DNA of 64,000 nt from Deltaproteobacteria bacterium. GTDB taxonomy: Bacteria; Desulfobacterota; Binatia; JACPRU01. The DNA lies in contig JACPRU010000065.1 of NCBI GenBank assembly GCA_016189835.1, positions 1 to 64,000 on the forward strand. The letters run 5' to 3'. The notes below the pieces were generated by a model. The model saw only the letters and a list, made by a program, of their open reading frames with translations, did not search any database and was not told the origin of the DNA. The first letter of the stretch is position 1. Every line of letters starts with the position of its first letter. The position numbers and the translations under genes are program-made. Positions 1-3,768 of this stretch are shown here, one piece after another.

Positions 1-83
1 AAACGGCCGGGGGCGCTTGGGATGGGAGAGATGCGAAAGGCTGGAAGTGACCCTCGCTTCCCCGACCCGCGATACGCAGGTCT

Positions 84-235
84 GCCTAACGCCTCGGACG
101 AGAACGGAGCCATCTCGGCAAGGGCCTTGCGGCGAAGGGGGTTCGAACGCGAGCAGCCACGCGAGTCGTTTGCTTAGACAGCGGACCTCAACCGCCCTCG
201 GGTGATTGCGCGGACCTGTCGAATAGAAGTTAGGC
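84..235 (+). other. possible integron attC site (degenerate)
   Basis: GCCTAAC at 84-90 and GTTAGGC at 229-235 bound the interval; inner arms pair weakly (CTCGgACgAG vs TTCGACAG). Confidence 0.35.
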
Positions 236-559
236 CGCTCGGACCACAAGACGCCCACGGCGCCGTGATCTCGGCTTCTCGCTGACCACGATCTCAACGT
301 CGCGATTGAGCGCGTTCAGAAACCGAATCAGCCGCTCGACCGAGAAGCCGCTGAGCCGCCCATTCCGAAGCGCCGACACCTTCGGCTGATCTATGCCCAG
401 GATTTTCGCCGCTTCAGCCTGGGTCAAGCCTCGCTTCCGAATGCTTTGCTCGATCTCGTAAGCCAAGCGGGCCTTCGCAAGAGCCTCTTCAGGCTGGGGT
501 CGCCCCAAGTCAGCAAATACGTTGCCGCTGCTCCGCGTGACCTTGATGCGCGCGCTCAT
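230..559 (-). CDS. XRE-family helix-turn-helix antitoxin (HigA-like)
   Basis: 109 aa; RSSGNVFADLG then HTH GLTQAEAAKILGIDQPKVSALRNGR; ATGA overlap with upstream toxin ORF. Confidence 0.85.
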   Translation of the reverse strand: MSARIKVTRSSGNVFADLGRPQPEEALAKARLAYEIEQSIRKRGLTQAEAAKILGIDQPKVSALRNGRLSGFSVERLIRFLNALNRDVEIVVSEKPRSRRRGRLVVRAA

Positions 560-957
560 TGCCTGCCTCCCGAAGTCGCCTCGGTATCCATCTCCGCTGC
601 CCGCGTCAGTCTCTGCTCGATCAACTCGACGTCCCTCCTCGGCGTCTCGACTCCCTTCTTCGACTTTTTCTGAAACGCATGCAGTACGTATACCGCGTGA
701 ACCAAACGCACCGTATACACCGCTCGGTACGTATCTCCTTGGTGATCCGAGATCATCTCGAGAACCCGGCCTCCCTTGAACCCCTTGAGCGGCTTGGTCT
801 TGCGGTGCTTATCGCCCATCTGCGCGAGGTAGATTCCATAACCCATCTCATCCTGAACCTCGTCCGGGAACCTCTTCAGGTCCTCAAGGCTCGTGCCCAC
901 CCACACTGCCGGTCTCGGCTTACGCCCTTCCTCCCCCACGACCGTACCATGCCACAT
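556..957 (-). CDS. Gp49-like / RelE-HigB superfamily toxin
   Basis: 133 aa; FPDEVQDEMGYGIYLAQMGDK...VYTVRLVHAVYVLHAFQKKSKKG typical of phage-derived Gp49-like toxins. Confidence 0.85.
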   Translation of the reverse strand: MWHGTVVGEEGRKPRPAVWVGTSLEDLKRFPDEVQDEMGYGIYLAQMGDKHRKTKPLKGFKGGRVLEMISDHQGDTYRAVYTVRLVHAVYVLHAFQKKSKKGVETPRRDVELIEQRLTRAAEMDTEATSGGRQ

Positions 958-989
958 CTAGCATGGGTGCGCAAGGCGGCCTAACCAAG

Positions 990-1127
990 GCCTAACCAGG
1001 CGCTGCAGCTGACGCCGAGCAGCTGTCCTGACTCACCGCCGGTGGTTCGCGCCTCTCGCTTTTTCGGTCGGGTCGTCTCGTGGTATGCATCGACTGCTCG
1101 GCGCAGCTGAGCGCCAAAGCGTTAGGC
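990..1127 (+). other. integron attC recombination site
   Basis: GCCTAACCAGGCGCTgCAGCTGaCGCCGAGCAG ... CTGCTCGGCGCAGCTGAGCGCCAAAGCGTTAGGC: arms are complementary apart from the core spacer and two extra bases (g, a) six apart on the left arm, the attC layout. Confidence 0.85.
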
Positions 1128-1433
1128 TGCTTCGGGATGTTTGCGACGACGTTGAGCCACGTGGAGCCGCACGCGCATTCCCGCGCGCGAGAGCATCTCC
1201 ACGAGTCCATCGATACTGAACAGATCGATTCGGCCGCGGACGAGATCACTGATCCGCGGCTGTGTGGCACCCAACAGCCTGGCAGCCTCAGCTTGCGTGA
1301 CCTTTCGTCGCTTGATGAGCCGGGTGATCTGCAACATGAGCTCCGCTCGAAGCTTGAGGCTTTCCGCCTCCTGCCTGCTGAAACCGAGATCACGGAACAC
1401 ATTCCCCCTCGATCGCTCAATCTTCATTGCCAT
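1122..1433 (-). CDS. XRE-family helix-turn-helix antitoxin (HigA-like)
   Basis: 103 aa; RSRGNVFRDLG and HTH KVTQAEAARLLGATQPRISDLVRGR; paralogous to 230-559. Confidence 0.85.
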   Translation of the reverse strand: MAMKIERSRGNVFRDLGFSRQEAESLKLRAELMLQITRLIKRRKVTQAEAARLLGATQPRISDLVRGRIDLFSIDGLVEMLSRAGMRVRLHVAQRRRKHPEAA

Positions 1434-1438
1434 CGTCT

Positions 1439-1789
1439 CTATTCCCAGTTCCGGCTCTTCCGAGCGGTCCGTCGCGCGTTGAGAAGGGCCTTCAGCCTCG
1501 TTCGCGCGAGCTCGATGTCCTCTCTCGCCGTCTTCCTTGCCTTTTTCTCGAAGGCATGGAGCACGTAGATCGATTCCTCAAGGCGCGTCACGTACAAGAC
1601 GCGATGTTCGAGCTTGGTATGAATTCGAATCTCCTGAACCCCCAGGCCAACGCTTGGCATCGCCTTCCAATCCGTCGGTTCGGTCCCGCTCTGCACGAGG
1701 TAAAGTTCATAGCCTGTCCGTTTCCGCGCATCGTCCGGAAACCCGCGCACGTCTCTTCGCGAGGAGCCCAACCACGTCAGCTGCCGCAT
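1439..1789 (-). CDS. Gp49-like / RelE-HigB superfamily toxin
   Basis: Start at MRQLTWLGSSRRDVRGFPDDARKRTGYELYLVQSG; YVTRLEESIYVLHAFEKKARKT; followed by antitoxin gene. Confidence 0.85.
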   Translation of the reverse strand: MRQLTWLGSSRRDVRGFPDDARKRTGYELYLVQSGTEPTDWKAMPSVGLGVQEIRIHTKLEHRVLYVTRLEESIYVLHAFEKKARKTAREDIELARTRLKALLNARRTARKSRNWE

Positions 1790-1799
1790 CCCATCACGC

Positions 1800-1827
1800 A
1801 GTATACAAGATTCTGTATGCGTGGCAA
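1800..1827 (-). promoter_or_regulatory. putative sigma70 promoter with overlapping palindromic operator for the 1122-1789 TA module
   Basis: Minus strand TTGCCA-N16-TATACT; overlapping ATACA-agattc-TGTAT (1803-1818); 11 nt upstream of toxin ATG. Confidence 0.5.
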
Positions 1828-1830
1828 GCA

Positions 1831-1857
1831 GCCTAACGGTCGTTGGGCGGCTGAGAG
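1831..1857 (+). other. possible truncated attC left half
   Basis: GCCTAACGGTCGTTGGGCGGCTGAG; RYYYAAC core but no convincing right-hand partner downstream. Confidence 0.25.
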
Positions 1858-1922
1858 TTGGGCACGCGAGCATCGCCAGCGACGCTCTTGAAGAGCCTAC
1901 ATGATGTAGCTACACTCCGGCG

Positions 1923-2083
1923 GTGCGGTTTGAGTGGGATGAGGCGAAGCGGAAGGCATTCTGGGCGGTCGCGTCGTAGCCATCGCCCACACAGAGCGTG
2001 AGGATGCCATCCGGTTCATCTCCATCAGGCGGGCAACCAAGAATGAGGAAAAGAAGTACTTCGCGAAGATCCCCGAGGCGTAA
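1923..2083 (+). pseudogene. brnT toxin gene with internal deletion and frameshift
   Basis: VRFEWDEAKRKA (BrnT N-terminus) runs into a different frame encoding LGGRVVAIAHTEREDAIRFISIRRATKNEEKKYF (BrnT C-terminus); the middle is missing. Confidence 0.8.
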
Positions 2084-2297
2084 GGGCATCAATCTCTCGG
2101 ATATCCCCGAGGTGTCTCCCGAGGCGTTCGCTAGAGGGTTGGTTCGCAAGGGGCTAGAGCCGGTGGCTCGCAAAGCGCAGGTCACCCTGCGGATCGACGC
2201 CGACGTCATCGAGTGGTTCCGGGACCGAGGTCGGGGCTACCAGACTCGGATCAACGCGGTTCTCAAGGCGTTCAAAGACGCCCACGGTCGTGCCTAG
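2043..2297 (+). CDS. BrnA-family antitoxin
   Basis: LSDIPEVSPEAFARG...QVTLRIDADVIEWFRDRGRGYQTRINAVLKAF; overlaps the brnT remnant end as in brnTA operons. Confidence 0.85.
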   Translation: MRKRSTSRRSPRRKGINLSDIPEVSPEAFARGLVRKGLEPVARKAQVTLRIDADVIEWFRDRGRGYQTRINAVLKAFKDAHGRA

Positions 2298-3155
2298 TAG
2301 GCGGGGAAACGCTCGACGTGCAGGCGAGGATGGCGGGCAAGGAGTTGGCGGACGGCGGGACCGCGATGAATGGAGCCTCCGTCCCAGAGCAGGATGATGT
2401 GCCCGCTCAGGTGCCGCAGCAGCAGGCGCAATAAGCAGCGACCTCGAGGTGGGTACTGTTGTCGAAGTGGAAGTGGAGGCCCAGGCGACGACGCCGGGGA
2501 CTCACGGTCACTGCGGAGATCGCCGAGATCTTGTCGCGCTCGTAGCGGTGGAAGACCAGCGGCGTCTTGCCGCAGGGAGCCCAGGTGCGGCGCACGGTCG
2601 GGATGAGAAGGAAGCCGCTCTCGTCCAGGAAAACGACATACGCCATCAGTCGTCGGGCTTTTTTTTAATCTCGACCCAACGGTAGCGCTTCCAATGAGCG
2701 ATCGCCGCTTCGTTCCGCTCCACTGCCCGTCGTTCGGGCTTCTGATAACTCCACCCGAGTTCCGCCAGGATGCGGCTCACGTGCGCTGGATGGTAGTCGA
2801 TCCTCAACTCCTGCTTGATCACGGCGGCGATCCGCCGGGTGGTCCACAGATCGTTCGGGTAGCCGTAGCGCCGAGCCCCCACGGCAAGGATCTTCGGCAG
2901 GCGCTGCCGCTGCCGGGGCGTCAGCTTCGGCGGCCGCCCCGCAGCAGGTCTTGCCGCCAGACCCTGCTCTCCCTTCCGGCGCCACGTCTCACGCCACTGC
3001 CACACGGCGCTCACTGCTGCGCCGATCATCCGCGCCACCGCCGACAGCGAGTTCCCGGCTTCCAACAGCCGCACTGCCCGCCGCCGACGCCTCTCCAGCT
3101 CCGCCGGGCTTCCACGCGCTTCCGGGTCACGATGGGCAGCGCGCGCCTGGGTCAT
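2294..3155 (-). mobile_element. IS630-family transposase remnant
   Basis: N-terminal HTH ORF (2646-3155), A8 run, then DDE ORF (2407-2646, VVFLDESGFLLIPTVRRTWAPCGKTP); a further frame continues RLLLRHLSGHIILLWDGGSIHRG...LHVERFPAY then stop; C-terminus missing. Confidence 0.8.
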
Positions 3156-3371: not shown

Positions 3372-3768
3372 AGCTCACCCTCCACAGCAGCTCGAAGCCC
3401 ACCTCTGGGGCGCGGCGAACATCCTGCGCGGCAAGACCGCGGGGCAGGACTACAAGAACTACATCCCGTCGCTGATGTTCTACAAGCGCCTCTGCGACCG
3501 GTGGGAGTGCGAGGCTCAAGGACGGCGTACAGGAGCGCTATCTCAGCTACTACGGCATCCGGCGCGTGATCCAGGACGGGGCCACGCCGGAGGTGCACTA
3601 CATACGGGACAAGGTGCCGTTCAAGGTGGACGAGGAGCCGCTGAGCGTCGGGTTCGAGCAGATGTGCGCGGAGATGGAGCTGGGGGACGAGGAGGCGAAG
3701 GACTCCATCCAGCGCCAGCGCGCGCAGTGGAAAGAGCTGGCCCGCCATCACAGCGCAGCTGAGAGCCG
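3368..3768 (+). pseudogene. decayed type I restriction-modification remnant (HsdM N-terminus joined to HsdR-like segment)
   Basis: QQLEAHLWGAANILRGKTAGQDYKNYIPSLMFYKRLCDRWE (HsdM) after a 2-nt frameshift, then ERYLSYYGIRRVIQDGATPEVHYIRDKVPFKVDEEPLSVGFEQMCAEMEL (HsdR-like). Confidence 0.7.

Follow-up and report, generated by a model that had tools for sequence, protein, structure and literature searches.

The window, by which we mean the whole 64-kb stretch of DNA that was analysed, belongs to contig C44, whose first base is window base 1. Its left end carries an attI region, two gene cassettes, each with a toxin-antitoxin (TA) pair, and an attC site at the end of the first (Table 1). The G+C content of this array is 61%, against 70% in the rest of the window. 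The BrnT/BrnA remnant to its right retains the C-terminal half of BrnT (PF04365, 6.6e-7, below the cut-off) and BrnA (PF14384, 3e-18). A broken IS630-like transposase in two pieces (DDE_3 and HTH_33) lies at 2407-3155 on the - strand, and the N-terminal remnant of HsdM, of type I restriction-modification, lies at 3391-3519 (PF12161, 2.5e-10) in a frame that is not maintained. A CoA-transferase gene follows these remnants.

Table 1. Features of the array and its borders, in window positions.
Feature	Position	Strand	Basis or remark
3' flank of off-contig intI (probable)	1-48	+	similarity of 2-26 to C79; contig edge
attI region	49-235	+	homology to C79 DNA 3' of intI; motif position
attI core CTGTCGAATAGAAGTTAGGC	216-235		predicted crossover G/TT at 229
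gene cassette 1, 892 bp	230-1121	+	bounded by attI and attC crossover points
cassette 1 antitoxin, HTH_37	230-559	-	PF13744, 2.9e-28
cassette 1 toxin, Gp49/HigB-like	556-957	-	PF05973, 3.6e-21
extra R'' box copy GCCTAAC	979-985	+	11-bp tandem, 11 bp before attC
attC of cassette 1	990-1127	+	covariance score, compensatory changes, fold z
attC, R'' GCCTAAC	990-996
attC, left stem half	999-1022		includes L'' 999-1004
attC, extrahelical bases	1005 (g), 1012 (a)		left arm (L'' side)
attC, loop	1023-1093
attC, right stem half	1094-1115		stem 1094-1109, L' 1110-1115
attC, unpaired spacer	1116-1120
attC, R' GTTAGGC	1121-1127
gene cassette 2, about 721 bp	1122-1842 (right end approximate)	+	starts at attC crossover; right boundary eroded
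cassette 2 antitoxin, HTH_37	1122-1433	-	PF13744, 5.4e-25
cassette 2 toxin, Gp49/HigB-like	1439-1789	-	PF05973, 4.2e-19
promoter-like site TTGCCA-16-TATACT	1800-1827	-	before cassette 2 TA pair; consensus match only, 1 found vs 0.6 expected
relic boundary GCCTAACGGTCGTTGGGCGGCTGAGAGTTGGGC	1831-1863	+	recombination boxes without stem
decayed BrnT/BrnA TA remnant	1923-2297	+	just outside array

The attC site is an imperfect hairpin in which all 29 arm pairs are standard and the central spacer is unpaired (CA against AAAGC). Its end boxes, GCCTAAC and GTTAGGC, are mutually complementary and fit RYYYAAC and GTTRRRY. A preliminary description had placed an attC layout at these coordinates, with two extrahelical bases six apart on the left arm, and the parts are as it said, six paired bases separating the two. 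It had also called the whole 138 bp a palindromic element; this holds for the arms (33 and 34 nt) but not for the inner 71 nt, which form a variable loop. The second GCCTAAC that it saw just upstream is real and part of an 11-bp tandem. Folded as single-stranded DNA, the site reaches -40.7 kcal/mol (z = -3.99), a value equalled by none of 200 shuffles. In a crude scan for R boxes and arm pairing, 3 of 300 whole-window shuffles had at least 25 arm pairs, the best having 30, as many as the real site, so that the stem and boxes alone are about a 1% event. The fold is thus suggestive but by itself not decisive.

Far stronger evidence than stem and boxes comes from a covariance model. Candidate attC sites were taken from the intI loci of other genomes and oriented by the integrase, and the model (R2) was built from 20 such sites with 22 pairs, leaving out the site in the window; searches were run with filters off. 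An earlier model (R1) was dropped, as trimmed right arms out of register had left it with 6 pairs only and it missed the site. R2 scores the site at 53.1 bits (E 8.5e-10) on the + strand and at 10.2 bits on the - strand, and the second-best site across the 64 kb reaches 17.8 bits. The strand-specific score upholds the earlier identification as attC, for which a low covariance score had been named as the outcome that would tell against it. In a search of the whole MAG, the site was the sole match. Across the class, attC matches were found in 66 of 148 genomes at E <= 0.001, and the integron platform is therefore common there. The stretch at 84-235, which has GCCTAAC and GTTAGGC ends, was considered as another attC and rejected at 8.2 bits; it belongs to the attI region.

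The structure of the site is conserved in a genome of another family (G145). Its site at L142:2669-2806 has the same length, aligns without gaps and is identical to the window attC at 100 of 138 positions. Of the stem pairs, 8 differ in both partners and none differs in one partner alone, pairing is retained in all 29, and the two extrahelical bases, which set the strand choice of an attC, are the same. These compensatory changes show that the structure of the long attC hairpin has been maintained across bacterial families. The neighbouring cargo in G145 is different: the genes there are PpoB2 and DUF1326, and another attC lies at 527-585. The same type of attC thus occurs with different cassettes.

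The MAG holds one integron integrase, at C79:423-1355 (- strand), which scores 439 bits against a TIGR02249 cut-off of 265 and matches the solved integron integrase 2a3v at E 5.8e-83; IntI-like matches on C72, C9, C86 and C27 were set aside as they fall under the family cut-off. The genome search for intI proposed in the preliminary description thus turned up an intact copy, and with it a homologous attI. The DNA directly 3' of the C79 intI is 75.6% identical to window 49-235 over 193 nt. The similarity stops at the GTTRRRY motif (GTTAGGC, 229-235), beyond which the genes differ, as is predicted for an attI. In about a dozen relatives, the motif (G)AATAnnnGTTRRRY is found mostly 150-285 bp 3' of intI. 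A weak match (E 0.019, 84% identity) links window 2-26 to C79 DNA some 16 nt beyond the stop codon of intI. From these similarities, the C44 intI very probably lies just beyond the contig end, with a stop codon that would fall some 15-60 bp outside the contig, to the left of window base 1; the integrase is very probably missing from the window because the contig begins there. As the two attI are only 76% identical, C79 represents another platform or the copy of another strain. A GCCTAAC at window 84-90, in the attI region, is shared with C79, and L015 and L097 have a near match to it (GCCTAAT). Lying about 145 bp before the crossover, it is possibly an accessory IntI-binding site.

The orientation of the array can be read from 28 intI loci with R2 matches, in which all 64 attC obey one strand rule. 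Where the array lies 3' of intI, attC is on the intI strand (14 loci), and where it lies 5', on the opposite strand (14 loci). The two kinds cluster strongly in a tree of IntI, the 3' kind requiring 3 changes as compared to 11.8 in shuffles. The C79 IntI is placed among the 3' kind, to which its close relatives showing attC also belong. In C79 itself (L010:1-1400), an intact inverted-type integrase and its attI are seen, with attI 3' of intI. This is the inverted-integrase arrangement, which for C44 is assigned by homology only; on this basis, the C44 platform is taken to be inverted, its intI being read in the direction of attI. An atypical arrangement of this kind is known from Treponema (PMC3607928), and a group of "inverted integrase" integrons has been named (PMC10500605).

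Both cassettes carry a Gp49 toxin adjoining an HTH antitoxin and running antiparallel to the array, and identity between the two pairs is 37-40%. In both, the TAA stop of the antitoxin (230-232 and 1122-1124) is the reverse complement of the TTA in the GTTAGGC box. The antitoxin gene thus runs to the crossover point, its stop codon lying inside the recombination box. A homologous pair is found between two attC sites in G039 (L163), in the same antiparallel orientation, with a toxin 57% and an antitoxin 64% identical to those of cassette 2. The overlap of stop codon and box is repeated there (L163:1422-1424), making three TA cassettes in all. TA pairs, including HigB/HigA and BrnT/BrnA, are frequent integron cargo (PMC7370490; PMC8618304). 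The C44 pairs share this type of cargo with higBA-type cassettes and differ from them in being Gp49/HTH_37 pairs placed right at attI, the resemblance being at family level only.

The right boundary of cassette 2 consists of GCCTAACGGTCGTTGGGC without a stem. The stretch at 1831-1863 is not significant as attC (13.7-17.8 bits) and holds the only two GTTGGGC of the window; array boundaries account for all four occurrences of GTTAGGC or GTTGGGC in the 64 kb. The sequence is probably a collapsed attC. With 17.8 bits (E 0.05), the stretch at 1766-1848 was a candidate for the cassette 2 attC, but it has a poor stem and overlaps the toxin start, and the boundary is for these reasons called a relic.

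We estimate a probability of about 0.85 that 990-1127 is the attC of the first cassette of an inverted-integrase chromosomal integron that is cut by the contig edge. After a putative off-contig intI on the + strand, the array reads, from left to right, attI, TA cassette 1 with its 138-bp attC, TA cassette 2, a collapsed boundary and decayed chromosomal debris. The attC structure and its conservation, the attI homology, the cassette boundaries and the TA families are what the analysis shows directly. The bottom strand of the attC is expected to form the hairpin from which the two extrahelical bases protrude. Insertion or excision of cassette 1 would follow from cleavage by IntI at G/TT in R' and recombination of the site with attI. 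The Gp49/HTH_37 pairs probably run on their own promoters, and this, together with their antiparallel run, suggests that they may serve as array stabilisers or as defence cargo. Against this reading stand the facts that the C44 intI is unseen, that the attI regions of C44 and C79 are only 76% identical, that only one attC is intact and that the boundary of cassette 2 is degenerate.

The chief competing explanation is a decayed second platform that retains attI and two cassettes; the intI next to them would be gone or disrupted, and movement of the cassettes would depend on the C79 integrase acting in trans. The sole intI of the MAG lies on C79 with a different attI, the boundary of cassette 2 has collapsed, and the BrnT/BrnA, transposase and HsdM remnants directly follow the array, all of which fit such decay. 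The absence of an adjacent intI is, however, uninformative, since the MAG is only about 75% complete and the expected place of intI is precisely where the contig stops, and we regard decay as possible but distinctly the less likely history. The preliminary description had wavered between the edge of a chromosomal integron extending left and a CALIN-type array. A CALIN, an orphan cluster of attC sites at a distance from any platform, would match a window with one attC and without integrase. It is very unlikely, since cassette 1 is immediately preceded by an attI region with homology to the one on C79, and the contig break would explain the missing integrase. Moreover, CALIN denotes two or more attC by default in IntegronFinder 2.0 (PMC9024848), with no integrase nearby, and one significant attC is present in window and MAG. 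The proposed look for further attC upstream found none, because attI lies there, and it is the edge reading that the position of attI, directly left of the first cassette, bears out. There is next to no chance that the palindrome is unrelated to integrons, as a terminator, MITE or structured RNA. Its stem is strong on both strands and a few shuffles have a similar arm count, but the 53-bit attC score is strand-specific, the extrahelical bases are conserved and the stem carries double changes, the context is one of cassettes, and an Rfam search gave no match.

The inverted-integrase integron that we favour is an ordinary addition to a known system, integrons being widespread in the class and TA cassettes common cargo. 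It provides a further case, with well-defined bounds, of inverted-integrase integrons, which have received less study. As in the Treponema denticola type (PMC3607928), intI would be transcribed toward attI, with the array after its 3' end; C44 differs in belonging to another bacterial class, in its visibly short array and in that both cassettes carry TA pairs antiparallel to the array. The C79 integron has a homologous attI and the same array orientation. Its IntI is intact, and its first cassette opens with a GmrSD_N-like gene (PF03235, below the cut-off) that is truncated by the end of the contig. The attC itself resembles the VCR attC of the Vibrio cholerae superintegron in its R and L boxes, unpaired central spacer, extrahelical L-stem bases and variable terminal structure (PMC2727003). 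Shared sequence is claimed for the boxes only, and the window site is distinguished by its 138 bp and a 71-nt loop partly conserved within the class. A more far-reaching proposal, which we consider rather improbable, is that the genome has two diverged inverted integrons with a lineage-specific long attC, its 71-nt loop conserved between families, and that selection has favoured antiparallel TA cassettes ending exactly in the R' box because they protect the array's platform-proximal end from being lost. The locus also illustrates how a contig break can make an integron platform resemble an orphan attC; draft genomes often split integrons between contigs (PMC9024848).

Related elements occur elsewhere in the MAG and the class. 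Half of a homologous attC, 75% identical, lies at C62:28373-28471 (L011:8374-8472) of the same MAG; it keeps one arm and the loop and was rejected as attC, failing the model. About 220 bp away, at approximately C62:28692-29414 (L011:8693-9415), is a third Gp49/HTH_37 pair, its toxin 54% and its antitoxin 51% identical to those of cassette 1. Half site and pair are a probable remnant of a related cassette. In G078, of the same class, contigs C24 and C75 carry attC matches of about 130 bp in a tight series, about 0.5 kb apart, forming a dense cassette array.
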